Shown in pieces: positions 3,151-15,143 of a stretch of 15,143 nt of DNA. How positions within the stretch are numbered: position 1 is the stretch's first letter; each line of letters begins with the position of its first letter. Made by a program: the position numbers and the translations under genes. The DNA is taken from assembly GCA_028288395.1 (NCBI GenBank), contig JAQBNV010000055.1:1-15143 (forward strand), written 5' to 3'. The notes under the pieces were generated by a model, which was not told the DNA's origin, searched no databases, and saw only the letters and a program-made list of their open reading frames with translations. The stretch is from Adhaeribacter sp. (GTDB lineage: Bacteria > Bacteroidota > Bacteroidia > Cytophagales > Hymenobacteraceae).

Positions 3151-3933
3151 ATGGCAATATTTAGTTTAGCTGGTAAAACGGCCGTAATTACGGGTGGCGG
3201 TAGCGGTATCGGCCGCAGCATTTCTACTTTATTCGCCCGCCAGGGCGCCACGGTTTGTATCCTGGAATTAAACCCGGAGGCCGCTGCCCAAACCGTTACC
3301 GACATTACCGAACAAGGCGGACAGGTAAGTGCTTTTGCCTGCAATGTAAGTATCCAGGCCGAAGTAACGGCGGTATTCGACACCATCCGGCAACAAACCG
3401 GACGCATCGATATTGTAATTAACAATGCCGGCATTGCCCACGTAGGCACGATTGAGCAAACCACCGAAGCCGACTTAGATCGCATTTACCAGGTAAACGT
3501 AAAAGGCGTGTACAATGGCATGCTGGCCGCGGTAAGCCACATGCAGGAAACTGGCGGCGGTGTTATATTAAACCTGGCTTCCGTGGCCTCGGTGGTAGGT
3601 ATTCCCGACCGCTTTGCTTATTCGATGAGTAAAGGCGCTGTACTGACCATGACGTACTCGGTGGCCCGCGATTATATCAAAAGCAATATCCGTTGTAATT
3701 GTCTGGCGCCTGGCCGGGTACATACCCCTTTTGTCGATGGTTTCCTGAAAAAAAACTACCCGGGCCAGGAACAGGAAATGTTCGATAAATTATCCCGTAC
3801 CCAACCAATAGGCCGCATGGGCGAACCCGCCGAAGTAGCCGCCCTGGCCCTCTATCTCTGCTCCGACGAAGCCTCGTTTATTACTGGCACCAATTACCCT
3901 ATAGATGGGGGCTTTATTACCCTGAACACCTGA
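3151..3933 (+). CDS. SDR-family NAD(P)-dependent dehydrogenase, probably 2-keto-3-deoxy-L-fuconate/rhamnonate type
   Basis: A 260-residue classical short-chain dehydrogenase with a complete active site: cofactor motif TGGGSGIG (14-21), acidic Glu39 at the end of the second beta strand (suggesting NAD over NADP), NNAG (91-94), Asn116, Ser144, and Tyr157/Lys161 in YSMSK. The end IDGGFITLNT is typical of the family. Many members oxidise the C4 hydroxyl of 2-keto-3-deoxy-6-deoxyhexonates to the 2,4-diketo acid. That role is inferred mainly from the next gene, a FAH-family hydrolase, and the lactonase further on. Related SDRs act on many alcohols, so the exact substrate is unproven. Cytoplasmic, no signal peptide. 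The preceding hairpin leaves just 18 bases before the ATG, with no clear Shine-Dalgarno. Confidence 0.85.
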   Translation: MAIFSLAGKTAVITGGGSGIGRSISTLFARQGATVCILELNPEAAAQTVTDITEQGGQVSAFACNVSIQAEVTAVFDTIRQQTGRIDIVINNAGIAHVGTIEQTTEADLDRIYQVNVKGVYNGMLAAVSHMQETGGGVILNLASVASVVGIPDRFAYSMSKGAVLTMTYSVARDYIKSNIRCNCLAPGRVHTPFVDGFLKKNYPGQEQEMFDKLSRTQPIGRMGEPAEVAALALYLCSDEASFITGTNYPIDGGFITLNT

Positions 3934-4149
3934 TAAATATTTAATAGCTAGACCCGGAGAATATTCTGGTAAATCAAATATTTAACTGCTCTGGCGCCTT
4001 TTATAAATATTCAGGTTATTGCTGATTTACGTAAAGAGACAAACGTATTTTAATATATACAGGTCGTAACAAATTAATTACTAAATATTTATAGTATAAA
4101 CCGCAATACTTCCCACTTACTTACTATTTTCAATTTAATACTCTACTAA
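3934..4149. repeat. AT-rich spacer with repeated TAAATATTTA palindromes
   Basis: This 216-base gap between the SDR and FAH genes holds the 10-base palindrome TAAATATTTA twice exactly (3934-3943, overlapping the SDR stop region, and 4082-4091). AAATATTTA occurs once more at 3976-3984, and a near copy TAAATATTCA at about 4003-4012. Another exact copy lies upstream of the GDPD gene at 9897-9906. They could be sites for a regulator or simply a product of AT-rich composition. No gene, clear terminator or firm promoter was seen here. Confidence 0.35.
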
Positions 4150-5010
4150 ATGAAATTAATCCGTTTTGGCCAACCCGGCAGTGAAAAGCCCGGCTTGTTA
4201 TTAGCCGATGGCAGCCGCCTGGATGCAAGCGCGTTTGGCGAAGATTATACCGAATCATTTTTCCAGAACAACGGTTTGGCCCGCCTGGCTACCTGGCTGG
4301 CACAAAACCAAGACACTGCTCCCCGGATTCCTGGGGATGTGCGCCTGGGCCCGCCGGTTGCCCGGCCCGGCAAAATAATTTGCATCGGTCTGAACTACTC
4401 CGACCACGCTGCCGAAAGCAACATGGCTTTACCCGCCGAACCTATTATTTTCTTTAAAGCTACCTCGTCCCTAGTTGGCCCGAACGACGATTTAGTAATT
4501 CCCAAAAACAGTGAGAAAACAGATTGGGAAGTAGAACTGGCTGTTATTATTGGTCAGAAAGCTTCTTATGTTTCGGAAGATGAGGCGCTGCAGTACGTGG
4601 CCGGCTACGCCCTGCACAACGACTACAGCGAACGTGCTTTTCAGCTGGAGCGGGGCGGGCAGTGGGTTAAAGGCAAAAGCTGCGATACCTTTGCCCCGTT
4701 AGGCCCGGTATTGGCTACCCCCGACGAAATTGCCGATTTAAACAACCTGCGCTTGTGGTTAAAAGTTAACGGCGAAACCAAGCAGGACGGCAATTCCGGC
4801 AACCTCATCTTTAAAATACCTTTTATCATTAGTTATTTGAGCCAGTTTATGACTTTATTGCCGGGCGATGTAATATCTACGGGTACACCCGCCGGGGTAG
4901 GTTTAGGATTTAAGCCGCCGCAATATTTAAAACCCGGCGATGTAATAGAACTGGGCATCGATGGACTGGGCGAATCGCGGCAGGAAGCGAAGGCTTACCA
5001 ACCTGCCTAG
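4150..5010 (+). CDS. Fumarylacetoacetate-hydrolase-family enzyme, probably 2,4-diketo-3-deoxy-L-fuconate/rhamnonate hydrolase
   Basis: A 286-residue cytoplasmic enzyme with the short N-terminal domain (MKLIRFGQPGSEKPGLL) and the FAH catalytic domain from about residue 70. Visible family marks: GLNYSDHAAE (80-89, with the His implicated in C-C bond hydrolysis), metal ligands Glu127 and Glu129 in DWEVELAVIIG, Asp158 in HNDYSER, the GQWVKGKSCDTFAPLGP block (170-186), and ISTGTPAGVGLGFKPPQYLKPGD near the end. Length matches the approximately 285-residue group that splits diketo-deoxy sugar acids into pyruvate and a hydroxy-acid (lactate in the L-fucose and L-rhamnose routes). The preceding SDR would supply the diketo substrate. 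Other members of this fold are acylpyruvases, so substrate is inferred from context. A very strong hairpin follows the gene. Confidence 0.87.
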   Translation: MKLIRFGQPGSEKPGLLLADGSRLDASAFGEDYTESFFQNNGLARLATWLAQNQDTAPRIPGDVRLGPPVARPGKIICIGLNYSDHAAESNMALPAEPIIFFKATSSLVGPNDDLVIPKNSEKTDWEVELAVIIGQKASYVSEDEALQYVAGYALHNDYSERAFQLERGGQWVKGKSCDTFAPLGPVLATPDEIADLNNLRLWLKVNGETKQDGNSGNLIFKIPFIISYLSQFMTLLPGDVISTGTPAGVGLGFKPPQYLKPGDVIELGIDGLGESRQEAKAYQPA

Positions 5011-5376
5011 AGATGCCGAAGCCAGCTTTCCCTGTTTTACAAAGTAGGGAAAACTGGTTATATTTTAATTACAAATATTGCCTGAAACTGGTTAAGTTGT
5101 ATATCCGGTTTCAGGCAATATTTTTTCTGAAATATCAACTTGGTTAAAGGTTAATTATATAGTATTAGCCTTAAAAAAATGGAAAGTTAAAATGAATAAA
5201 AAGCAACTTCTCTCTTCCGTAAGGGTTTAATTTAGATAAAGGGAAAAGCAATAATTAAGGTAAATAAAGAAACGCAACGTAGCAGAATAGAGAGTCCCAA
5301 TAAAAATTTCGGGGCAATATTCAGGTCAATTTCAGGCAGCGCCAGCCGCCAATCACCGGTAAGTATCATTTAATTT
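5011..5376 (+). other. Intergenic region between FAH and metallophosphoesterase genes
   Basis: A 366-base gap. It begins with a weak hairpin (TTTCCCT about 5029-5035, AGGGAAA about 5046-5052) and then the strong terminator at 5073-5126. The remaining 250 bases are AT-rich with no recognised gene and no confident promoter, though a promoter for the metallophosphoesterase/lactonase pair must lie here if the terminator is efficient. Confidence 0.5.
5073..5126 (+). terminator. Long hairpin terminator after the FAH gene
   Basis: Arms at 5073-5091 (AAATATTGCCTGAAACTGG) and 5105-5123 pair over 19 bases with a single T-G wobble, around a 13-base loop, and the right arm runs into six Ts (5121-5126). 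It is unusually long for a simple terminator but has the right shape. Confidence 0.8.
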
Positions 5377-6738
5377 ATGCGAATGGGTTTGGGGAAAAAT
5401 CGGGTCAGGTTTAATTTATGCTTTCGCTGCGTGCGTTTATTTTTCTTTTTGGGTTCGCTGTTGCCCCTGCCGGCCTTAACCCAAAACGAGAGGCAACCTA
5501 TCCAGCAGGTAAACCCATCCCCCAGTCCCCGCCCCGACCGCATTATTTTAACCTGGCAAACCGAACCCGCTACTTCCCAAACCGTCACCTGGCGCACCGA
5601 CCAATCGGTAAAAACACCCCAAGCCGAGATTGCGTTGTCCGACGCATCCGCGTATTTCACCAATTATGCTACTACTTTTCCGGCCGCAACCGAAGCGCTC
5701 AAAACAGCTAATGGCGAAGCGCTTTACCATTCTGTAAACTTTTCCAAACTTTCGCCCAATACCCTGTATGTTTACCGGGTAGGTAACGGCACCTACTGGA
5801 GCGAATGGTTTCAGTTTCGTACCGCCAGCAAGCAACCCGAACCCTTTTCTTTTATTTATTTCGGCGACGTTCAGAACCAAATTTTTTCCCAATGGTCGCG
5901 GGTAATCCGGGCTGCCTACGCCGAAATGCCAAAAGCTAAATTTATGCTGTTTGCCGGCGACCTGGTTAACCACGCCGAGGACGATACAGAATGGCAGGAA
6001 TGGTTTACGGCCGGCTCTTTTATTCCGGCTACCCTCCCCAGCATATTGGTTGCCGGCAACCACGAGTACGCCCGCAACGCTGCGGGTTTACCCCGAATTT
6101 CCCGGCATTGGGATCCGCAGTTCAACCTGCCCGGCAATGGCTTGAAATCACAGCAGGATCTCGTTTATTATACCGATTACCAGGACATGCGGATTATTTG
6201 CCTGAACTCTTACTGGCTGGTACCGGCCCAAGCCAGGTGGCTCGAAGAAGTATTGAAAAACAACCCGAAGAAGTGGACCGTGGTGGCTTGCCATTACCCG
6301 GTATTTTCTACCGCGGTCGGCCGCGAAAACGAAAACCTGGTAAAGCACTGGCAACCGCTGCTCGAAAAATATAAAGTAGATCTGGTTTTGCAAGGCCACG
6401 ATCATACGTATGCACGGGGTTCTAATTCGCCAGCCGGTAATACGAAAAACGCCAGTGAAACCGGGCCGGTATACGTGGTTTCGATCAGCGGTCCGAAAAT
6501 GTATACCCTCGGCGATAGAATAGGGATCGCCCGGAGCGCCGAAAATACCCAGCTTTACCAGATTATTACCGTTGATCAGGATAGCTTGCTGTATAAATCG
6601 ATGACCGTAACCGGCGAACTTTACGACGCTTTTACGCTACATAAAAAAAAGGGCGAGCCGTCCCGCTTAACCGAACTGCCTAAAGATGTAAAAACCGAGC
6701 GCCGGTTTAATAATACCCTAAAGATTCCAACAAAATAA
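5377..6738 (+). CDS. Secreted purple-acid-phosphatase-like metallophosphoesterase
   Basis: A 453-residue protein. A signal peptide (about 1-36, hydrophobic LFFFLGSLLPLPAL) leads to a fibronectin-III-like N-terminal domain of purple acid phosphatases (about 52-150: RIILTWQTEPATSQTVTWRTD..LSPNTLYVYRVG), then a calcineurin-type catalytic domain (about 155-400). Metal and active-site motifs are GDVQN (Asp164), GDLVNHAED (Asp195), GNHEY (Asn228, His229), CHYPVF (His306) and GHDHTYAR (His341, His343). True purple enzymes have a tyrosine after the second motif (GDLxYA); here the matching position is Asn/His, so the iron-tyrosinate colour centre is probably absent. It likely hydrolyses phosphomonoesters or diesters outside the cytoplasm; substrate unknown. 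Only 3 bases separate it from the lactonase gene, so the two are almost certainly co-transcribed. Confidence 0.88.
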   Translation: MRMGLGKNRVRFNLCFRCVRLFFFLGSLLPLPALTQNERQPIQQVNPSPSPRPDRIILTWQTEPATSQTVTWRTDQSVKTPQAEIALSDASAYFTNYATTFPAATEALKTANGEALYHSVNFSKLSPNTLYVYRVGNGTYWSEWFQFRTASKQPEPFSFIYFGDVQNQIFSQWSRVIRAAYAEMPKAKFMLFAGDLVNHAEDDTEWQEWFTAGSFIPATLPSILVAGNHEYARNAAGLPRISRHWDPQFNLPGNGLKSQQDLVYYTDYQDMRIICLNSYWLVPAQARWLEEVLKNNPKKWTVVACHYPVFSTAVGRENENLVKHWQPLLEKYKVDLVLQGHDHTYARGSNSPAGNTKNASETGPVYVVSISGPKMYTLGDRIGIARSAENTQLYQIITVDQDSLLYKSMTVTGELYDAFTLHKKKGEPSRLTELPKDVKTERRFNNTLKIPTK

Positions 6739-6741
6739 AAC

Positions 6742-7575
6742 ATGAATATTGACGCGCACCAACACTTCTGGCAGTATTCCGCCGCCGCTTACGATTGGAT
6801 TGATGCCTCTAAGTCCGCTTTGCAGCGGGATTTTTTGCCCCCGCACTTAGCACCGCTGCTGCAACAGGCTGGTTTTTCCGGCTCAGTGGCCGTGCAGGCC
6901 TTGCAAACCGAAGCCGAAACGCAATTCTTGCTGAATTTAGCAGCGCAATACGATTTTATCAAAGGCGTAGTCGGCTGGACGGATTTACAGGCGGCGGATG
7001 CGGAAACAAAACTGGCGCTACTGGCGCAAAACCCGAAGCTAAAAGGCCTGCGGCACGTGGTACAGGATGAACCCGACGATCGCTTTCTTTTGCGCCCGGC
7101 TTTTCTGCGGGGTATGGCGCTGCTGCAAAAATTTAATCTTACCTACGATATTCTTATTTTCCCCAAGCATCTGCCTGTAGCCTGCGCGTTTGTAGCCCTG
7201 TTTCCCGACCAGGCTTTTGTGCTCAATCATCTGGCCAAACCGGATATCAAAAATCAGCAACTGGCGCCCTGGGCGCAACAAATACGGGAACTGGCCCAAT
7301 ACCCGCACGTTTACTGCAAACTCTCCGGCCTGGTAACCGAAGCCGATTGGCACCACTGGCATCCAAACCATATGCAGCCCTACCTGGCGGTTGTAATGGA
7401 AGCCTTCGGCCCCGACCGCCTGATGATTGGTTCGGATTGGCCGGTTTGTACGTTGGCTGGGCCATATGCCGCCGTCATGAACCTGGTTAAGGAATATTTG
7501 GCGCCGCTTTCTGCCACCGATCAGGCCAAAATATTAGGCGGCAATGCCGCCAGGTTTTACAACTTAGCTACTTAA
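6742..7575 (+). CDS. Amidohydrolase-2 family lactonase (L-fuconolactonase/L-rhamnonolactonase type)
   Basis: A 277-residue cytoplasmic TIM-barrel hydrolase of the amidohydrolase_2 (COG3618) family. The metal-site HxH is at 6-8 (DAHQHFW). Further family residues are Arg104-His105 (KGLRHVVQDEP), His163 in LNHLAKP, Lys193 in CKLSGL, and Asp232 in MIGSDWPVC. Characterised close relatives open sugar-1,5- or 1,4-lactones such as L-fuconolactone and L-rhamnonolactone. With the SDR and FAH genes upstream, a role early in an L-fucose or L-rhamnose oxidative pathway is the best reading. The dehydrogenase making the lactone and the dehydratase after it are not in this window. Starts 3 bases after the phosphoesterase stop and converges with the next gene, leaving a 26-base gap with no obvious hairpin. 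Confidence 0.85.
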   Translation: MNIDAHQHFWQYSAAAYDWIDASKSALQRDFLPPHLAPLLQQAGFSGSVAVQALQTEAETQFLLNLAAQYDFIKGVVGWTDLQAADAETKLALLAQNPKLKGLRHVVQDEPDDRFLLRPAFLRGMALLQKFNLTYDILIFPKHLPVACAFVALFPDQAFVLNHLAKPDIKNQQLAPWAQQIRELAQYPHVYCKLSGLVTEADWHHWHPNHMQPYLAVVMEAFGPDRLMIGSDWPVCTLAGPYAAVMNLVKEYLAPLSATDQAKILGGNAARFYNLAT

Positions 7576-7601: not shown

Positions 7602-8675
7602 TTAGTCGAGTTTAAAAGTAAACTCATCGTGCGTTTCGGTTCGCCAGGCAAATTGCTGGGTAGTGGGAGAAATACCAAAAAAGGGCGAAAAGGTTTTTAC
7701 TTTTACTGTTTTACCATCCGGCAAAAACTCCAGGATGCGCAGCCAGCCGTCTCCCCCATTGCCGTACCAGCCGCCTCCCAGCGCCTGGGCATTAAATACC
7801 ATCTGCTGCACCTTTTTCCCGCCCGCGTTGGTATCGGTACGAAAAGCGACGTGTGCTTTGGGGTTATCGGGTGCCCCGATATGGCCGGCAAAAACCAACT
7901 GAATATTTTTGGATGGCTGCACTAGTTTCTGATAAATGGCCGCCCCGTAATTTCCCTCCGCAATGCCATAATTTTCTTTAACCATGTGCTCATTTTTTGC
8001 ATTCATGTAGGAGTGGGTCAGTACAATTACTTTATGCTGGTTATACTTAGGTAGGTTGACCACCTCTTTTGCCCAGGCCAAAATGGTATCGCGGGGCGCA
8101 AACTCCAGGGTAATAATTAAAAACTTTACGCCGTGGGGAGAAGTAAAATCGAAGGAAGCATTTTCCAACGTAGGAATTTTCTCGGCATTCTGCGCCACTT
8201 CCCGCACCAGTTTCTGGGTTTGGAAATTTTTATCAATGGGGAAATATTTATTAAAATTGGTATTCCGGGAGCTGATGTTGGCATAGCCATAATCATGATT
8301 TCCGGCCGCCGTGATAAAAGGCACCCGCCCATCTAGTTTGCTAAAAGAACGAGACACCGACTCCCATTGCAATTTACTTGGTTGGTTTACTTTTGTTCCT
8401 TCCGGGTTAATCATTTCGTTTTGCTCTACCAAATCCCCGGTACACAACACCAGTTTAATATTCAACGGCTCAATATTTTCCTTTATCCAGGAGGTCATTA
8501 ATTCCAATATAGGCTGGTTGCGCTCAAACTTTACGTAAGATTGCGGGTCCGGAACCAGAATCATGGACCAGGAACCAGGAGTGCTTAAAGCAGGCGCGAT
8601 ATACTTTTTCTGCGCAACAACACCCAATGAAAACAAGATTCCTAAAAACAGACTGACAAAAAATTTAATTTTCAT
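7602..8675 (-). CDS. Secreted calcineurin-like metallophosphoesterase with altered final motif
   Basis: A 357-residue protein with a signal peptide (about 1-21, MKIKFFVSLFLGILFSLGVVA) and a metallophosphoesterase domain. Motifs in order: VPDPQ (Asp43, with Gln45 where the usual DxH has His), CTGDLVEQNE (Asp81), AAGNHDYG (Asn126, His127), LTHSYMN (His221), and AGHIGAP (His265, Gly267). The last motif is normally GHxH, so one metal ligand is replaced by glycine, and the first motif also lacks His. Such changes occur in some extracellular members of the superfamily and may alter metal content or substrate. No N-terminal Fn3 domain is present, unlike the neighbouring plus-strand enzyme. It lies 160 bases downstream of the GDPD gene on the same strand, so the two may share a transcript. 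Substrate unknown. Confidence 0.85.
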   Translation of the reverse strand: MKIKFFVSLFLGILFSLGVVAQKKYIAPALSTPGSWSMILVPDPQSYVKFERNQPILELMTSWIKENIEPLNIKLVLCTGDLVEQNEMINPEGTKVNQPSKLQWESVSRSFSKLDGRVPFITAAGNHDYGYANISSRNTNFNKYFPIDKNFQTQKLVREVAQNAEKIPTLENASFDFTSPHGVKFLIITLEFAPRDTILAWAKEVVNLPKYNQHKVIVLTHSYMNAKNEHMVKENYGIAEGNYGAAIYQKLVQPSKNIQLVFAGHIGAPDNPKAHVAFRTDTNAGGKKVQQMVFNAQALGGGWYGNGGDGWLRILEFLPDGKTVKVKTFSPFFGISPTTQQFAWRTETHDEFTFKLD

Positions 8676-8835: not shown

Positions 8836-9816
8836 CTATTTTTTAGCCGGGCCTTTGGATTGATTAAAATATTTCGTTTTTACACTTTTCGGTGGTATCA
8901 TCCCTTGGATCGCGGCAGCGGCTTCTATGGGCAAATCTGATTCCAGCACATCCGCGCCACTTTTAAAGATATCCTGGTACGCTTTCTTCCGTTCAGTAGG
9001 ATCTTTCAATTTATCGTAAGTGGGAGCCGCCGAAATCATACACATCACACCCCGGGCATGCAATAAATCGTACATTTCTTTTACTTCGGGCTTATTTTCT
9101 GGTCCCACGTAAGCCATAATCCGCGACCAGGGCACCCCAGCCTTTTCGTAAGATTCCAGTTCCTTTTTGGTTTTCACGAAAGCGGAAAACATGACACCCG
9201 GAATATTATCGTAATAATATTTTGCTTGTTCGGCCGTGTGAACGGTTAGCATGACGTGGGCCGCGGCATTGTGCTGTTTTAGCTTTTTCATGGTCATGGC
9301 TAATGGCACATCTTTTTTATCGAGGTTAACGATGGTTTTTCCTTTGCTCCACTTAATTACTTCGTCCAGGGTGGGAATTCCGTAAGGCGTTAAGTTACCT
9401 TCGGGGTCCTTTAGTTTGAATTTCTTTAGCTCATCCCAGGTATAATCCGATACTTTGCCCGTGCCGTTCGTGGTACGCTCCAGGGTTGCATCGTGCATTA
9501 AAACAATAACACTGTCTTTTGTCAGCCGGGGATCGATTTCAAAAAAGGCTGGAGTGTGCCGCAAAGTATTTTCAAAGGTGGCAATGCTGTTTTCAGGGTA
9601 GCCCCGCGTCATGCCGCCCCGGTGGCCACTAATCAATGGAATATCTTGGCCGGTATATTTAAAATAATTATGCAGCTCGGCGGTAGTTTTAATATTAAGC
9701 GTATGCAGCGGTTTTTTTGCCTGGGCAGTCGTTTGGTTAGGCACACCAGCAAAAAGGGCAATCATTAATCCCACGGTGTAAGAAAAGGGAAAGAATGGCA
9801 TCTGGAATATTTTCAT
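8836..9816 (-). CDS. Secreted glycerophosphodiester phosphodiesterase family protein
   Basis: A 326-residue protein. A hydrophobic N-terminus ending near residue 33 acts as a signal peptide (..VGLMIALFAGVPNQTTAQA). The GDPD TIM-barrel domain follows from about residue 60. Key residues are present: His65-Arg66 in ISGHRGG, Glu75-Asn76 in YPENSIATFENTL, Glu93 and Asp95 in FFEIDPRLTKD, and His108 in LMHDATLERTTNGTG. This pattern predicts a metal-dependent enzyme cleaving glycerophosphodiesters to glycerol-3-phosphate and an alcohol, or a related phosphodiester such as glycerophosphoinositol. It acts in the periplasm or outside. The C-terminal SGADVLESDLP is also typical. Start at 9816 gives a complete signal peptide; MPFFP at residue 6 is an alternative start. 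It may be co-transcribed with the downstream calcineurin-like gene. Confidence 0.9.
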   Translation of the reverse strand: MKIFQMPFFPFSYTVGLMIALFAGVPNQTTAQAKKPLHTLNIKTTAELHNYFKYTGQDIPLISGHRGGMTRGYPENSIATFENTLRHTPAFFEIDPRLTKDSVIVLMHDATLERTTNGTGKVSDYTWDELKKFKLKDPEGNLTPYGIPTLDEVIKWSKGKTIVNLDKKDVPLAMTMKKLKQHNAAAHVMLTVHTAEQAKYYYDNIPGVMFSAFVKTKKELESYEKAGVPWSRIMAYVGPENKPEVKEMYDLLHARGVMCMISAAPTYDKLKDPTERKKAYQDIFKSGADVLESDLPIEAAAAIQGMIPPKSVKTKYFNQSKGPAKK

Positions 9817-9945: not shown

Positions 9946-10545
9946 TCATAATTTACTATTCAGGTGTACCAGCGAAAGTTCACCGGCGGCATCCAGTTGG
10001 AACAAGGTAACCGACGAATTATCGATTACTAATTTCCGGTAGTTTTTAACGGGCATGCCCAATTTATAAGCCAGGTAAAGGCGGTTTACGCCGTTGTGCG
10101 CTACTACCAAAATATTGCCGCCAGTATGTTGCGCCTGCAGCGAAAGATAAAAATCATTTACCCGTTTAATTACTTCCCCTGCCGATTCGCCGGTTTCTCC
10201 GGCCTTGGTTTGTTCCGGGTCTTCACACCAATTTTGCCAGATCTGCTCGTTTTCCGGTATAAATATTTCTTTGGGCTTACCTTCCCATCGGCCAAAATCA
10301 GCTTCGATTAAACGTTCATCTTTTTTTACGGCCTGGCCGCCACAGGCAATCTGGGCCGTGCGGTAAGCCCGTTCCAATGGCGATGAATAAACAGCATCGA
10401 AAGTGATATTTTTGAGCTGGGCCGCGGCGGCATGCGCTTGCGTCAAGCCTGTTTCGGTTAAAGGTAAATCGGTACGGCCACAGTAGCGGTTGCCATCCGC
10501 ATTCCAGGCCGTTTGACCGTGCCGGAGTAAATATATATTAAGCAT
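9946..10545 (-). CDS. Histidine phosphatase (phosphoglycerate-mutase superfamily)
   Basis: A 199-residue cytoplasmic protein. The first motif LLRHGQTAWNADGNRYCGRTDLPL holds catalytic His9. SSPLERAYRTA (54-64) holds the second arginine, EADFGRWEGK (81-90) the acid region, and VVAHNG (147-152) the second histidine His150. This is a complete branch-1 active site, closest in pattern to GpmB/CobC-like small-molecule phosphatases rather than glycolytic mutase. The frame is open 25 codons further upstream, but LNIYLLRHG directly after the ATG at 10545 is the normal family beginning and the upstream part encodes the end of the kinase in another frame. It overlaps the kinase stop by 8 bases and is the last gene of the operon. 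It probably dephosphorylates the pathway product or clears a wrongly phosphorylated by-product; substrate unknown. Confidence 0.88.
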   Translation of the reverse strand: MLNIYLLRHGQTAWNADGNRYCGRTDLPLTETGLTQAHAAAAQLKNITFDAVYSSPLERAYRTAQIACGGQAVKKDERLIEADFGRWEGKPKEIFIPENEQIWQNWCEDPEQTKAGETGESAGEVIKRVNDFYLSLQAQHTGGNILVVAHNGVNRLYLAYKLGMPVKNYRKLVIDNSSVTLFQLDAAGELSLVHLNSKL

Positions 10546-11995
10546 ATTGGTAATCGGCGATATAGCCTTTTTTTTGTAAAACGTGCAGGAATTCGCCGTA
10601 ACTTTTCTGATAACTGGCACTGAGGGCCGGGGTAGGACGAACTTCTTTTTCGATTTGGGTTAAAGCCCGGGTGGCTTGGCTAATAGACTTAAAATAGGTT
10701 TTGGAAGCTGCTAAAATAGCTGCTCCTACTGCTCCCGTTACATGCCGCATTTTGTAAATGGGCAGATTCAATACGTTACTGCGGATGGTAAGCCAGGTAT
10801 CACTGTTGCTGGCACCGCCCGCTGTATACACGGCTTCTACTTTTTCGCCCGAAAGCTGTTGTATGATTTCGTACGCATAGCGCTCCACGTAAGCCACCCC
10901 TTCCATATTGGCTACGAAACGCTGGACTTGGGATAAACCTTCCGGCTCAAAACCACGGGCTTGCGGGGATATAAACGGGAAACGTTCTCCTGCCTGCCGC
11001 AACGGGTAAGCTAAATAGCCCGAAGGAATAAGAGCTGCTGCCTGTTCATTTAGTAAAGCTAAATCTTCTTTAAACTCTTTTGTTACCCAATCGGCACCGG
11101 TGTTGCTGGCGCCGCCCGGCATCCAGAAACCTTCCGGGTGACGGTGGCTGTACAATCTGTCTTGGGGGTCTTTTAATTCTGCCCGGGTTACGCCTTTTAC
11201 AACCAATGTAGTACCAATTGTGGTGTTCCAATCGCCAAGATTAACTGCCCCGGACGCTACCTGCGAAGCGCACCCATCGGTCATGCCGGCCACCACCTGC
11301 AGCTGCGGGCTTAAACCCAAGGCCGCGGCTAAATCGGGCGCTATTTTGCCGATGGGAGTCCCGGACGGAACAACCGCGGGCAGCCATTCTTTTTTCAGGG
11401 GCAATTGCTCGTAAATATAGGCTGGCCAATAATTATCTTTTACATCGTAACCCGACTTTAAGGCATTGGTATAATCGGTGATGCCCCACTGGTGGCTGAG
11501 CTTACCGATAATAAAATCGGCCGCGTGAATCCATTTAGCTATTCTGGCGGCTTTTTCCGGAAAATGACTGTTGAACCAAACCATTTTAGATAAGCCACTC
11601 GATGCATTAAAGCCCGTATAGCCCGCCGGATGAAAAGCCTGCGCTGTTTCACGGCACAGCTTGCCTTCGGTGGCCGAACGACTATCGCTGTACATAATGG
11701 CATTGTGCAGCGGCTCATTCCGGGCATCCAGGGGAATTACGGTACCCGAAGTAGAAGTAACCGAAACCGCCAGAATATCCAAAAGAGAAATATTCGATTT
11801 TGTCTCCGCTAATAAATCTTTTAAAGAGGCCAGGCAAGCTTCCCACCACAACGTTGGCGATTGCTCTTCACGGGATCCATTACTTAGCGGAAAGGTTTCT
11901 TCGCGGCTGGCCACCTGGTTACCGGCTACATCCAATAAAACTACCCGGGCACCCTGGGTACCAATATCGATGCCTAAAAAATAAGGTGCCGTCAT
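10538..11995 (-). CDS. FGGY-family carbohydrate kinase, D-ribulokinase-like
   Basis: A 485-residue cytoplasmic sugar kinase with two actin-like domains. The N-terminal phosphate motif is GIDIGTQGARVVLLD (8-22). Asp240 in AGMTDGCASQVASGA is the expected catalytic base. WNTTIGTTLVVKGVT (256-270), LYSHRHPEGFWMPGGASNTGAD (281-302) and the ATP-binding TAGGASNSDTW (391-401) resemble the plant/cyanobacterial D-ribulokinase (XK-1-like) group. It should phosphorylate a ketose or polyol; D-ribulose is one candidate. The frame is open 49 codons upstream of the chosen ATG, but those bases encode the end of the preceding kinase. ATG 11995 is supported by the ATGA overlap, by GGAGG 7 bases upstream and by the family start. 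Two kinases of one superfamily adjoin here but belong to different subgroups, so this is not a recent duplication. Confidence 0.88.
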   Translation of the reverse strand: MTAPYFLGIDIGTQGARVVLLDVAGNQVASREETFPLSNGSREEQSPTLWWEACLASLKDLLAETKSNISLLDILAVSVTSTSGTVIPLDARNEPLHNAIMYSDSRSATEGKLCRETAQAFHPAGYTGFNASSGLSKMVWFNSHFPEKAARIAKWIHAADFIIGKLSHQWGITDYTNALKSGYDVKDNYWPAYIYEQLPLKKEWLPAVVPSGTPIGKIAPDLAAALGLSPQLQVVAGMTDGCASQVASGAVNLGDWNTTIGTTLVVKGVTRAELKDPQDRLYSHRHPEGFWMPGGASNTGADWVTKEFKEDLALLNEQAAALIPSGYLAYPLRQAGERFPFISPQARGFEPEGLSQVQRFVANMEGVAYVERYAYEIIQQLSGEKVEAVYTAGGASNSDTWLTIRSNVLNLPIYKMRHVTGAVGAAILAASKTYFKSISQATRALTQIEKEVRPTPALSASYQKSYGEFLHVLQKKGYIADYQYA

Positions 11996-13452
11996 ACTAC
12001 TTCCTCCGGACATAACCTTTTGAAGGTTTGACGATTGCGTTTCCATTCCTGGTAACGGGCGGTATAATCTCCTACTTCCAGTGGCTCCACTACGGCTACC
12101 GCTACCGTTGGGCAGGCTGGTTCGCCCAACGCTTCGTTGCATATATAAACGCCGCCAACCGCCGAGGCTTGCTGATAACTTTCGCGGATATAAACCTTTT
12201 TATTTAATAAACTGGCGATAAACTGGCGCAATAAGCGGCTCTGAAATCCGCCGCCGCAGGCCCAGACATAATCTTTTTCGTTTGTCGAAATATCAGTTAA
12301 AGTATTGTAATTTTCTTTAATGCTGCAGGCAATATCCCAGAGCGTAGCCCACACAAAATGGCCGCGGGTTAGCACATGCGAAACCGGTGCCGGAAAAATA
12401 AAACCCCCTTTAGTGATAGGCGATTTTTCGTCGGCTACCAGCGAACCCAAAGAAGCCACGCACAAGGCACTTTTTACCTGGCTTAGTTCCTGCTCTATTA
12501 CCGCATAGCTCTCGTTCGGGTAAAATATTTCTTTCAGGCGCTGGTAGTTCAGGCCGGTTACGCCGGCGTTGGTTTCCAGCACAAAATTATTTTCATCGAT
12601 GTGCCGGTTCGTCCAGGAACGTTCCCGAACGTCCGTAACATATTCGTCGATGAGTTTGATAATGGGCGTGGTCGTTCCCGAAACAATTACTACATCCTCT
12701 ACGGCTGGTTGGGTGCCTTTTACCGCTAATTGCGTATCGGCCCCACCGATAACTACCTGGGCAGCCGGGGAAATAGTAAAGGTTTGCGCAACTTCTGGTA
12801 AAATATCGCCCAAAATAGTACCCGAATGGCCCATTGGAGATAATAAACCAGGATTAATATCAAATATTGCGCATAATTCCGGCGACCAACCTTTTTGGGC
12901 CACGTTATACAGCAAAGTTTCGGATGCCTGGGAGTGTTCGTATTTGGCAACGCCGCTCAACATGAACTGCGCCCAATCGCTGATGCTTAAAAAGGTAGCG
13001 CAGGCTGTCCAAATTTCCGGACGACGTTCCCGCACCCCTACCAGCTTTAAAGCAGAAAAAAGAGAAGTGGGATAACGGCCGGTTAGTTCATAAACATAAC
13101 TTTTGTCGGTAACCTGGTGCTCCCATTCCCTTCCCCGGTGGTCGATATTGGGTAAGCCAATCAACGACTCCCCATTATGCCCGATTAAGACAATGCCTTC
13201 GCGCTGGCTGGTAGCAGTCATGGCTTTTATCTCCAGTCCGGGCACTTTTGCCAAAGCCGTTTGGGCCAATTGGATAATAATTTGCCACAGTTGGTTGGGG
13301 TCAAAATAAATGGATTCGGGATAATGCGTATCTATCTGATAAGGCATGTTGTCGCGCGCCACACTTAATATTTCCCCTGTTTTGGCAGCCATCGCCACCC
13401 GCACGTTACCGGTGCCGATATCAATTATTATATAACCTTCCTGCTTTGCCAT
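11992..13452 (-). CDS. FGGY-family carbohydrate kinase, autoinducer-2 kinase (LsrK)-like
   Basis: A 486-residue cytoplasmic kinase. The N-terminal phosphate-binding motif is IIDIGTGNVRVAMA (9-22). SQREGIVLI (82-90), PNIDHRG (101-107) and SISDWAQFMLSG (156-167) closely recall LsrK, which phosphorylates the signal autoinducer-2. Asp239 in GGADTQLAVKG is the expected catalytic base; SGTTTPI (259-265) and ACGGGFQSRLLRQF (398-411) complete the nucleotide site. No lsr transporter, LsrR or LsrF/G gene is nearby, so AI-2 itself is not an obvious substrate. A small polyol, ketose or hydroxy-acid fits the operon better. The stop overlaps the next kinase start by 4 bases (ATGA), and the start lies 7 bases after the dehydrogenase stop, so translation is probably coupled. 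The subfamily call rests on motif memory. Confidence 0.85.
   Translation of the reverse strand: MAKQEGYIIIDIGTGNVRVAMAAKTGEILSVARDNMPYQIDTHYPESIYFDPNQLWQIIIQLAQTALAKVPGLEIKAMTATSQREGIVLIGHNGESLIGLPNIDHRGREWEHQVTDKSYVYELTGRYPTSLFSALKLVGVRERRPEIWTACATFLSISDWAQFMLSGVAKYEHSQASETLLYNVAQKGWSPELCAIFDINPGLLSPMGHSGTILGDILPEVAQTFTISPAAQVVIGGADTQLAVKGTQPAVEDVVIVSGTTTPIIKLIDEYVTDVRERSWTNRHIDENNFVLETNAGVTGLNYQRLKEIFYPNESYAVIEQELSQVKSALCVASLGSLVADEKSPITKGGFIFPAPVSHVLTRGHFVWATLWDIACSIKENYNTLTDISTNEKDYVWACGGGFQSRLLRQFIASLLNKKVYIRESYQQASAVGGVYICNEALGEPACPTVAVAVVEPLEVGDYTARYQEWKRNRQTFKRLCPEEVV
12003..12007 (-). promoter_or_regulatory. Strong Shine-Dalgarno deciding the start of the second kinase
   Basis: Read on the minus strand, GGAGG stands 7 bases before the ATG at 11995, inside the last codons of the upstream kinase (Pro-Glu-Glu-Val-Val-stop). 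Most genes in this window lack a clear Shine-Dalgarno, so this one stands out and supports coupled but independently boosted translation. Confidence 0.65.
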
Positions 13453-13459
13453 ACCCCTA

Positions 13460-14467
13460 TTAGTTTTTAGCCGACAGCAACGCTGTGTTTGCCAGTTGTT
13501 TAATATTTTTATTATCGTCGATAAACCAGGCTTTCAGCGCATCGTTCATGATATAGGCATGATGGTCTTCCACTTCGAAGGTAGCGCCGGCAATGTGCGG
13601 GGTAGCCAATACGTGGGGGTGGTGAATAATTTTATAATCAATGGCATCAGGGGGTTCGTGGTCGAATACATCCAGAATGGCCCCGCGTATCTGGTTTTTT
13701 TCCAATGCCTCCAGTAAATCATCGCGATTTACCACTACGGCCCGGGCAGTGTTTACAAAAAGCGCATCGTGTTTCATCAAAGAAATCAAGCTTTTATTTA
13801 TCATGCCTTCGGTTTGTTTTGTAACCGGCAAATGAATGGAAACAATATCGCTGGTGGCAAAAACCTCTTCTAAACTAACCTTCTTATAATACGGGTCGGG
13901 CGATTCGGTGTAAGGGTCGTAGAACTGAATGAGGCACGGAAAACTTTTTACCATGTTGGCAATGCGCTGCCCAATAGCGCCAAAACCTACCATGCCAATG
14001 GTTCGGCCAGCTAATTCATTGCCTTTAAACTGCAGGTACGAGGTATGCGCCCCCGCTTCCCAGTTTTCACCTTCCAGCCATTCGCAGCCGGCAATGGTAT
14101 TGCGCAGAAAGGCAATTACGTTGGAGACAAACATTTCGGCCACAGCCTGGGCATTACGAGCGGGGGTATGAAAAACCGGAATATCGTGCGCGGTAGCAGT
14201 TGAGACGGCTACATTGGAAGGGGTCCCGCGACAAACCCCGATAAATTGCAAATCCGGGAAAGAATTTATTACGTTTTCTGTTACGTGGTCGTGCTCGGTT
14301 ATCAGGGCTTCTGCCCCGGTTTCCGCCAGCAAAGCCATGAGTTCGTTTTCGTTGTAGGCCTTGCCCTGGGTTTTCCAGGGGTGATATATAATTTCTCCAA
14401 AGATAGCAGCCAATATTTCTTGCGCCTTTTCGTGGTAAGGCGCGGTAATTAAAATTTTCATACGCAT
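13460..14467 (-). CDS. D-isomer-specific 2-hydroxyacid dehydrogenase (SerA-like)
   Basis: A 335-residue cytoplasmic NAD-dependent oxidoreductase with the split catalytic domain plus Rossmann domain of the family. The dinucleotide motif is GFGAIG (161-166), followed by Asp184 in QFYDPY, which favours NAD. The catalytic triad is complete: Arg242 in NTARAVVVNRDDLLEAL, Glu271 in DVFDHEPP and His291 in ATPHIAGATFE. NAQAVAEMF (105-113) is also typical. The C-terminus lacks the ACT domain of long 3-phosphoglycerate dehydrogenases, so serine synthesis is unlikely. It is the only oxidoreductase visible in the operon and would interconvert a 2-hydroxy acid and 2-keto acid, or a related hydroxy-ketone, from the imported substrate. 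MRM at the start leaves two ATGs (14467 or 14461); neither has a clear Shine-Dalgarno. The permease stop is 85 bases upstream. Confidence 0.88.
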   Translation of the reverse strand: MRMKILITAPYHEKAQEILAAIFGEIIYHPWKTQGKAYNENELMALLAETGAEALITEHDHVTENVINSFPDLQFIGVCRGTPSNVAVSTATAHDIPVFHTPARNAQAVAEMFVSNVIAFLRNTIAGCEWLEGENWEAGAHTSYLQFKGNELAGRTIGMVGFGAIGQRIANMVKSFPCLIQFYDPYTESPDPYYKKVSLEEVFATSDIVSIHLPVTKQTEGMINKSLISLMKHDALFVNTARAVVVNRDDLLEALEKNQIRGAILDVFDHEPPDAIDYKIIHHPHVLATPHIAGATFEVEDHHAYIMNDALKAWFIDDNKNIKQLANTALLSAKN

Positions 14468-14552
14468 TTGTTAAAAATAATCGCTAAAAATTACGGGTTG
14501 AATAGTCCCGCTGAATTAAAGGGGAATTTCTCTAAATTCTAAAATAATCGGT

Positions 14553-15143
14553 TTATACCAGCGGCGAAGCATTGATGCCTTTGGTAGCCGGTGCTATCGT
14601 TTCTTCTTTTACCTGATGTGCGGTTTTAGCATTATCGGGTAAGGTTATAAACTTAGTTAAAACTGCGCTCAGCAAATAAAGTCCGGCTAAAATCCAAACT
14701 ACCCCTTCATCGCCAACCAAACCAATAAATACACCCACAATGGCTGGTCCGAGGAACACCGGTAAGCCAGCGCCTAAATTTAAAATTGCCATGGCGGCAC
14801 CTTTATCTTTTTTTACCAGCGAAGGCACCAACGCCGAAAGCGGCACATAACCGGCCAGTAAAGCGCCCCATAAAACACCGGCCATTAAAACTACCCAGAA
14901 ATTATTACCGACCAGCTGCGGCGTATAAAAAAATAATAAGGTGGACACAGCGCATCCTACCCCGCCGAACCACATAACGGTATTGCGCCAGCCCATCTGG
15001 TCGCCCACAAAACCAAAGATCAAGTTGAAGGCAATATTGGCCGTGAAAATAGTACCCCAGATTTGCAGCCACTCGGTTGTAGAAAAACCGTGCGCCGCCA
15101 TATAAGTGGGCAAAAAGACCGGAAAAGCAAACTGAGCTGTGGT
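14553..15143 (-). CDS. MFS permease, RbtT/DalT/CsbX polyol-transporter-like, C-terminal half
   Basis: Only the last 196 residues are present; the frame is open to the window edge, so the start lies beyond it. About five to six hydrophobic helices are visible (for example around GTIFTANIAFNLIFGFVGD, NTVMWFGGVGCAVSTLLFFY, FWVVLMAGVLWGALLAGYVPLSALV, AMAILNLGAGLPVFLGPAIVGVFIGLV and VVWILAGLYLLSAVLTKFITL), matching transmembrane helices 7-12 of the major facilitator superfamily. The segments GDQMGWRNTVMWFGGVGC and PLSALVPSLVKKDKGAAMAILNLGAGLPVF recall the ribitol/D-arabitol permease group. It should be an inner-membrane importer driven by the proton gradient. First visible gene of the operon with the dehydrogenase and two kinases, it points to a polyol or similar small uncharged substrate. 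Substrate assignment is tentative. Confidence 0.82.
   Translation of the reverse strand, partial: TTAQFAFPVFLPTYMAAHGFSTTEWLQIWGTIFTANIAFNLIFGFVGDQMGWRNTVMWFGGVGCAVSTLLFFYTPQLVGNNFWVVLMAGVLWGALLAGYVPLSALVPSLVKKDKGAAMAILNLGAGLPVFLGPAIVGVFIGLVGDEGVVWILAGLYLLSAVLTKFITLPDNAKTAHQVKEETIAPATKGINASPLV

Follow-up and report, generated by a model that had tools for sequence, protein, structure and literature searches.

A conserved Bacteroidota operon with a polyol-type permease, a 2-hydroxyacid dehydrogenase, two unlike FGGY kinases, a histidine phosphatase and a phosphodiesterase

The operon yoaDCB of Bacillus subtilis, which we take to encode a permease, a 2-hydroxyacid dehydrogenase and an FGGY kinase, offers one of the nearest known parallels to an operon found in a 15,143-bp stretch of DNA from Adhaeribacter sp. 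(assembly GCA_028288395.1, contig JAQBNV010000055.1; the whole stretch is hereafter called the window). To our knowledge, no function has been established for yoaDCB, an S-adenosylmethionine (SAM)-riboswitch operon. According to published reports, yoaDCB is under S-box regulation (PMC2743287, PMC12121620), yoaB and yoaC are usually induced by methionine starvation (PMC5519356), and a speD mutant shows a joint decrease of these two genes, mtnA and mtnK (PMC2743287, PMC5519356). The operon in the window encodes an RbtT-family permease, a YoaD-like dehydrogenase (DH), two FGGY kinases (KIN1 and KIN2), a histidine phosphatase (PHO) and a GDPD-family phosphodiesterase (GDPD). It is likened to yoaDCB by gene types, names and regulation only, and the Bacteroidota loci differ in adding KIN2, PHO, GDPD, a DeoR gene and, in some cases, the SusC-SusD pair.

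The classical ribitol operon consists of RbtT, ribitol dehydrogenase and D-ribulokinase. The present locus has the same permease family, and KIN2 resembles a D-ribulose-active kinase; unlike that operon, however, the studied core lacks a polyol dehydrogenase and includes an extra kinase, PHO and a phosphodiesterase. The dihydroxyacetone phosphate (DHAP) shunt is encoded by mtnK-mtnA-ald2. A YoaC/YoaD-like pair lies inside such a cluster in Enterococcus raffinosus, whereas the core studied here holds none of the three shunt enzymes. As the initial annotation of the window had pointed out, the gene content is unlike that of the classical ribitol, arabitol, erythritol and lsr operons. A new uptake and phosphorylation route had also been proposed there. 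We found no open-licence paper on this gene set, nor any assignment of it to a pathway in the open-licence literature, and the main text of an FGGY family analysis mentions neither YoaC nor words in Bacteroid- (PMC3245297); the trio of permease, dehydrogenase and kinase, however, has a precedent of its kind in yoaDCB, which it resembles in names and regulation. The uptake-and-phosphorylation operon itself is real and well conserved, is larger than first described, has no pathway description that we could find, and is kin to both yoaDCB and sugar utilisation loci while having an unusual mix of enzymes, giving a context for the orphan B. subtilis operon.

Conservation and anatomy of the operon

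A pattern scan based on the KIN1 alignment, with one genome per species, gave 175 encoding stretches, and the best 80 are referred to as the named loci. Together with the window and one further relative (L038) they make 82 loci, 81 of which were assessed for gene content; locus L068 was left out because an antisense open reading frame hid KIN1 in frame picking, even though tblastn gave a full KIN1 match. Since frame picking also fused or extended some starts, the gap lengths in the loci of relatives are approximate. The permease, DH, KIN1, KIN2 and PHO genes were found in this order and on the same strand in 73 of the 80 named Bacteroidota loci (20 named genera and two groups of metagenome-assembled genomes), indicating that the arrangement is not due to chance and contradicting the possibility, raised beforehand, that the order is not conserved in other genomes. 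The six-gene order including GDPD was found in 67 of the 80 named loci (68 of 82 once the window and L038 are counted). Within the 81 loci, KIN2 was present in 81, PHO in 80, DH in 78, the permease in 75, GDPD in 72 and DeoR in 67; the count for KIN1 (81) carries no evidential weight because its presence was the criterion of selection. Contig ends account for three of the six absent permeases, two of the three absent DHs and the single absent PHO. The flanks are variable, and besides the core and the DeoR gene no gene cluster exceeds 27 of the 82 loci.

In 59 related genomes, including the source genome itself, a KIN1 ortholog was detected in three genus-mates (75-81% identity) and in none of four other genus-mates and 51 further genomes. 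At E<=1e-100, KIN1 matched 3 of 395 genomes of the phylum, the source genome among them, and a scan of genome contigs with the single kinase gave 11 stretches with no relatives among them. This patchy distribution is the one expected of an accessory catabolic trait; a role in metabolite repair or housekeeping was rejected, or at least weakened, for the same reason.

All five genes of the initial annotation lie head to tail on the minus strand with intact open reading frames, and the spacings given there for the last four proved exact: a gap of 7 bases separates DH and KIN1, while KIN1 and KIN2 overlap by 4 bases and KIN2 and PHO by 8. Between permease and DH the gap is 85 bases. The families it had named (permease, 2-hydroxyacid dehydrogenase, two FGGY kinases and histidine phosphatase) match Pfam, and the Pfam and NCBIfam assignments are concordant, with no curated NCBIfam cut-off reached by KIN1, KIN2, DH or PHO. 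The operon limits of 9946..15143 were too narrow, since GDPD follows downstream and the rest of the permease lies upstream, on another contig, with SusD and SusC (Table 1).

The right edge of the window coincides with a contig end, and the remainder of the permease is carried by a 5.8-kb contig of the same genome, C599. This contig encodes the N-terminal 238 amino acids of the permease (91% identity to the Adhaeribacter aerolatus protein), SusD (88%) and, by Pfam, a SusC-type TonB-dependent receptor, an order shared with A. aerolatus and L038. The contig ends do not overlap by any base and fall two codons short in comparison with A. aerolatus; the proposed junction rests on homology, not on sequence overlap. 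With no aldolase or isomerase visible, the initial annotation had considered that either the product feeds central metabolism directly or more genes lie past the right edge. More genes are present there, without an aldolase or isomerase: C599 holds only the start of the permease, SusD, SusC and a motif-bearing region, and an aldolase or isomerase directly past the edge was rejected because SusD and SusC are located there. Adjacent SusC and SusD genes, the criterion for polysaccharide utilisation loci, were found on C599 and in loci L038 and L040. As in such Bacteroidota loci, a SusC-SusD pair, a regulator and exported hydrolases occur together; unlike them, the hydrolases are mostly phosphoesterases and SusC-SusD is adjacent in a minority (8 of 80).

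Table 1. Core and probable accessory genes of the operon within the window
Gene product	Position	Strand	Family assignment
RbtT/DalT/CsbX-family major facilitator superfamily (MFS) permease, C-terminal 196 amino acids, cut by the window edge	14553-15143	-	TIGR00897, MFS_1
YoaD-like 2-hydroxyacid dehydrogenase (DH)	13460-14467	-	Pfam 2-Hacid_dh; NAD domain PF02826
FGGY kinase 1 (KIN1), LsrK-like	11992-13452	-	Pfam FGGY_N + FGGY_C
FGGY kinase 2 (KIN2), SePSK/AtXK-1-like; start ATGA at 11995	10538-11995	-	Pfam FGGY_N + FGGY_C
Histidine phosphatase, branch 1 (PHO)	9946-10545	-	Pfam His_Phos_1
GDPD-family phosphodiesterase (GDPD), sixth core gene	8836-9816	-	PF03009
Calcineurin-like phosphoesterase, probable accessory member, 160 bases past GDPD	7602-8675	-	PF00149

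Candidate DeoR operator and associated phosphoesterases

A divergent DeoR gene was found in 67 of the 80 named loci. At 62 of the 82 loci, a DeoR gene diverges from the operon and the region between the two could be used for comparison. The motif TTAAACAAAATTAAA, with up to two mismatches, was detected in 48 of these 62 regions, against 10 of 320 intergenic regions elsewhere in these loci, giving a Fisher p of about 3e-38 with species treated as independent despite their kinship. In 20 Markov simulations with the same dinucleotide make-up, the motif appeared in 0-7 of 62 regions. We infer from these sequence comparisons that the motif is a candidate operator of DeoR. Over all loci, 23 further intervals carry the motif, and 19 of these are tied to permease, MFS8-FAD-EEP, ENPP or DeoR genes: 11 lie immediately ahead of the permease, with DeoR elsewhere or other genes between, two ahead of MFS8-FAD oxidoreductase-EEP genes and another two ahead of ENPP phosphodiesterases; three separate a DeoR gene from SusC or another gene, and one precedes an SSF symporter gene that is followed by FAD-EEP. 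The other four show no such tie. Three copies with 1-2 mismatches lie upstream of SusC on C599.

The distribution of the motif suggests co-regulation of the operon with further phosphoesterases, and the MFS8-FAD oxidoreductase-EEP cluster and ENPP likely belong to the same regulon. Among the 80 named loci, MFS8 was found in 20, the FAD oxidoreductase (PF12831) in 21 and EEP (PF03372) in 20. Genes of the three types lie near the operon in L092 (3556-7457) and its relatives, with the motif before some of them. The cognate DeoR gene was not found in the source assembly, which is 79% complete. The DeoR gene on its contig C252 has only 55-58% identity to the DeoRs of the genus, which share 86-98% among themselves; judged by these identities it is likely to be a paralog, with the cognate gene probably located in sequence that the assembly lacks.

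GDPD scored 76.6 bits to PF03009 (cut-off 23.6). Its residues H65, R66, E75, N76, E93, D95, H108 and D109 are kept in at least 98% of 69 sequences (window included, after a length filter, as for the KIN1, KIN2 and PHO alignments below); these HR..PEN, E.D and HD residues are presumably the functional motifs of the family. The closest solved relative is PDB 3mz2 (381 bits over residues 35-318 of 326), and a weak similarity (47 bits) was detected to 5t91, which we take to be the teichoicase GlpQ. By eye, an apparent signal peptide was seen on GDPD and the other phosphoesterases and none on PHO. The calcineurin-like gene after GDPD is also present in A. aerolatus and A. rhizoryzae, with relatives in 8 of the 80 named loci. 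A second, unlike GDPD gene (PF03009) lies near or inside the operon in L058 (14745-15674), L087 (6628-7425) and L107 (9072-9989), in the last case between DH and KIN1. The exported-looking genes of the probable regulon encode mostly phosphoesterases of unrelated folds (GDPD, ENPP, calcineurin-like and EEP), and these, together with the second GDPD of three loci, are the main ground on which a phosphate-ester cargo is proposed. The probable regulon makes a clear biochemical prediction, in that several unrelated phosphoesterases are coupled in it to a dehydrogenase, two kinases and a permease of polyol type.

Enzyme families, proposed route and alternatives

The two kinases are unlike, as first noted, with about 21-24% identity where aligned, both in the window pair and in the same genes of relatives. 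Both exceed the gathering scores of FGGY_N and FGGY_C, and every match of either to the xylulokinase, gluconokinase, L-fuculokinase, rhamnulokinase and glycerol kinase models was below cut-off; the rhamnulokinase models match KIN1, not KIN2. KIN1 has the autoinducer-2 (AI-2) kinase LsrK as its best solved relative (132 bits with a profile), a REGIVL stretch being common to both, and its R84, E85 and D239 are conserved in the alignment of 78 sequences. Its homolog in A. aerolatus carries the source name YoaC. For KIN2 the nearest solved relatives are AtXK-1 of Arabidopsis, the best match, and SePSK of Synechococcus. Conserved in 77 sequences are D10, T13 and D240 of KIN2; these and the S83/G84 loop align with D8, T11, D221 and the S72 region of SePSK, while S12 and S222 of SePSK correspond to Q14 and G241; all these SePSK positions are among its D-ribulose-binding and catalytic residues. 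Positions of FGGY specificity (PMC3245297) were mapped by eye. Among five substrates, SePSK was stimulated most by D-ribulose, according to the report on it (PMC4880283). The gene contexts of plasmid xylB genes gave nothing informative. In PHO, the RHG motif is conserved (69 sequences), and the CobC alpha-ribazole phosphatase model TIGR03162 gave 142.9 bits (cut-off 162.9).

On TIGR00897 (RbtT/DalT/CsbX, cut-off 375), full-length permeases of the genus scored 569 and 568 bits; the window fragment alone scored 233 bits, below the cut-off because it is cut. Of the plasmid-borne permease relatives whose surroundings were read, the closest (68%) and two others (54%) are clustered with genes for an alcohol dehydrogenase, an RpiB-type isomerase and a DhaK-DhaL kinase. 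These clusters, which presumably resemble threitol or erythritol pathways, suggest a C4-C5 polyol or ketose as a partial hint from gene context. In Pseudalkalibacillus, Escherichia coli and Salmonella (L139, L142 and L143; permeases 54-68%) they also hold a transaldolase or GlpX and possibly serve the use of tetritols. The permease relatives of Peribacillus, Priestia, Klebsiella and Pantoea each have a different gene context.

In an alignment of the window DH with 72 DHs of 300-360 amino acids, R242, E271 and H291, which we take to be the catalytic Arg-Glu-His triad of 2-hydroxyacid dehydrogenases, are kept in at least 97% of the 72. R80, presumably located at the substrate loop, and TPxRNA are also conserved. 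DH is below the phosphoglycerate dehydrogenase (PHGDH) model TIGR01327 (176 bits, cut-off 454), and the positions of R54 and R75, presumably the phosphate-holding arginines of human PHGDH, are not Arg in the alignment. With no counterpart to these arginines, DH most likely acts before phosphorylation. No shared theme was seen in the genes around the DH relatives of Ilyobacter, Mesorhizobium and Agrobacterium.

Based on these assignments, the locus may be an accessory catabolic one under DeoR control, serving the use of a small neutral sugar or polyol (probably C4-C5) that is derived from a larger phosphate-ester-linked molecule, a reading that we consider evenly balanced between right and wrong. 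SusC/SusD, where present, would carry the phosphodiester-linked cargo through the outer membrane, and the exported phosphodiesterases (GDPD and, in some loci, ENPP, calcineurin-like and EEP proteins) would cleave it in the periplasm. The released sugar or polyol would be taken up by the RbtT-like permease and oxidised or reduced by DH. KIN1 and KIN2 would then phosphorylate intermediates, KIN2 yielding a ribulose-5-phosphate-like product with no aldolase required, and PHO would remove a misplaced or first phosphate. The product would exit to central metabolism as a pentose-phosphate intermediate, and a phosphorylated intermediate would be the likely inducer of the DeoR repressor.

Several observations weigh against this catabolic scheme and its putative substrate. 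Because 2-hydroxyacid dehydrogenases normally use hydroxy or keto acids, DH is a poor fit to a neutral polyol. The C4-C5 hint comes from some relatives of the permease only, those at 64%, 56% and 46-47% not being in RpiB/DhaK clusters. The motif is A+T-rich (the regions have 28% G+C) and is missing from 14 of the 62 regions. Only 8 of the 80 named loci have SusD immediately ahead of the permease or DH, and 26 have SusC at any place in the stretch, indicating that SusCD import is not universal. GDPD is absent from 9 of the 81 loci, where the phosphodiester step would be dispensable or replaced. AtXK-1, the best solved match of KIN2, responded little to D-ribulose (PMC4880283).

A bolder version of the same scheme, which we regard as doubtful, is an undescribed cross-phylum phosphate-relocation route that replaces aldolase cleavage. 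A C4-C5 sugar or polyol, released from its phosphodiester linkage outside the inner membrane, would be imported and then oxidised by a SerA-like DH that has departed from hydroxy-acid chemistry, after which it would pass to one FGGY kinase, to PHO and then to a D-ribulokinase-like kinase acting at the other end. Such a route would explain why two unlike kinases and PHO occur together in 80 of the 81 loci assessed and, if true, would also point to the function of yoaDCB in B. subtilis.

Related clusters were also detected in other phyla. A 7.3-kb stretch of a plasmid of Streptomyces sp. KN37 (L144), on which we know of no study, brings together DH, PHO, DeoR, an RbtT-family MFS permease (49%) and two FGGY kinases, the first of them KIN2-like (35%), as in the Bacteroidota operon. 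In contrast to that operon, the second FGGY kinase has no BLAST match to KIN1, the gene order is different and the stretch holds no GDPD. Streptomyces sp. NBC_01727 has DH, an FGGY kinase, PHO, DeoR and a KIN2-like kinase (35%), with no such permease in the stretch and a GDPD about 6 kb off. Judging from the Streptomyces kinase without a BLAST match to KIN1, the first kinase seems exchangeable. The recurrence of the operon in 20 named Bacteroidota genera and of this swapped-kinase form in Streptomyces points to a substrate met by many bacteria.

The closest DH (45%) and KIN1 (33%) relatives found outside the phylum, in the plasmid collection, are those of Enterococcus raffinosus. In this plasmid (L121, 5632-14664), the YoaD-YoaC-like pair lies with an NhaC-like antiporter, a FucA-like aldolase (276 bits, cut-off 264), an iron alcohol dehydrogenase, MtnK (370, cut-off 275), MtnA (334, cut-off 271, NF004326; below the TIGR00512 cut-off with 207.5 of 279) and a divergent DeoR gene, a variant of the DHAP shunt with two extra enzymes. 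In Klebsiella and other Streptomyces, an FGGY kinase and either MtnB or a class II aldolase accompany a DH of this subfamily; the two such kinases compared showed only distant similarity to KIN1, 27% over 38% for that of Klebsiella. On the Klebsiella plasmid (L122, 5887-9029) the MtnB-family protein, over cut-off, adjoins the kinase and the DH, possibly a third use of this DH type. No Rfam match was detected on L121, L122 or L124.

The Enterococcus and Klebsiella clusters would fit a salvage of SAM-derived deoxy- or methylthio-pentose or of a diketo sugar, after the context of YoaC and YoaD in Firmicutes, as would the S-box control of yoaDCB and the joint decrease of yoaB, yoaC, mtnA and mtnK in the speD mutant (PMC2743287, PMC5519356). 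For the Bacteroidota operon we consider this hardly probable: MtnK was over cut-off in none of 34 operon-bearing genomes (34 of the 80), with one weak partial match and positive controls in E. coli and B. subtilis, and is absent from the source assembly; the phosphodiesterases and SusCD are a misfit, the core lacks an aldolase, and the Klebsiella FGGY kinase is only distantly KIN1-like. On the MtnK count, the DHAP shunt itself was rejected or weakened. Control by a SAM riboswitch was rejected or weakened by an Rfam scan of the window, L038, L039, L040 and C599, which gave no match. The AI-2 (4,5-dihydroxy-2,3-pentanedione, DPD) system also draws on KIN1, whose relationship to LsrK and common REGIVL stretch would suit an lsr-like uptake and processing. 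This is very improbable, since on the LsrK model NF008187 (cut-off 528) KIN1 reached 145.1 bits and KIN2 125.6, LuxS was found in 1 of the 34 genomes, and GDPD and KIN2 would be left unexplained; by layout no lsr-type partner was seen in the core, the Lsr ABC transporter, LsrF and LsrG not having been searched by profile. AI-2 and lsr were accordingly rejected or weakened as candidates.

A variant of ribitol or pentitol use, for instance of ribitol teichoic acid, would make GDPD a teichoicase, the permease a ribitol importer, DH the ribitol-oxidising enzyme and KIN2 the source of ribulose-5-phosphate. It agrees with the RbtT family of the permease, the SePSK-like KIN2 and the weak likeness of GDPD to 5t91, and is nevertheless unlikely: the core has no member of a polyol dehydrogenase family, no 2-hydroxyacid-type enzyme is known to us to oxidise a polyol, KIN2 is far under the pentulose-kinase model TIGR01315 (62 of 408.7 bits), and KIN1 and PHO are left without a role. 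Another alternative is keto-aldonate use after kguT-kguK-kguD, a scheme of permease, kinase and reductase for a 2-keto sugar acid, in which the imported acid would be phosphorylated and then reduced by DH to a phospho-aldonate. The full catalytic triad and the extra conserved R80 of DH argue for this, as does a 2-ketogluconate reductase (9m0t) among the matches of the E. raffinosus DH. The permease, however, belongs to a polyol-transporter family, KIN1 (83 bits) and KIN2 (125 bits) stay far under the 649 bits of the gluconokinase model, and two kinases and PHO are unexplained, making keto-aldonate use distinctly unlikely.

Flanking genes

Several catabolic genes lie near the operon. In eight loci a GH106 alpha-L-rhamnosidase gene was observed, by Pfam in L061 (14794-17844) and by cluster in L046, L048, L064, L066, L069, L075 and L099. 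Judged by eye, a rhamnose-type catabolic set is located just 5' of the operon in Pedobacter L054, where an aldolase-short-chain dehydrogenase/reductase (SDR) fusion was confirmed, and, from gene sizes, in L056. Within the window, plus-strand genes at 3151-7575 converge on the operon, encoding an SDR and a purple acid phosphatase along with relatives of two other enzymes, 2,4-didehydro-3-deoxy-L-rhamnonate hydrolase (363 of 500 bits) and L-fucono-1,5-lactonase (311.5 of 400 bits); from their family relationships they would form part of a non-phosphorylative deoxyhexose pathway, and A. aerolatus has the same neighbours. At 225-716 on the plus strand, a 163-amino-acid, sialidase-like open reading frame holds a partial BNR_2 domain (positions 2-102 of 277) and, with its early stop, may be shortened or frameshifted.

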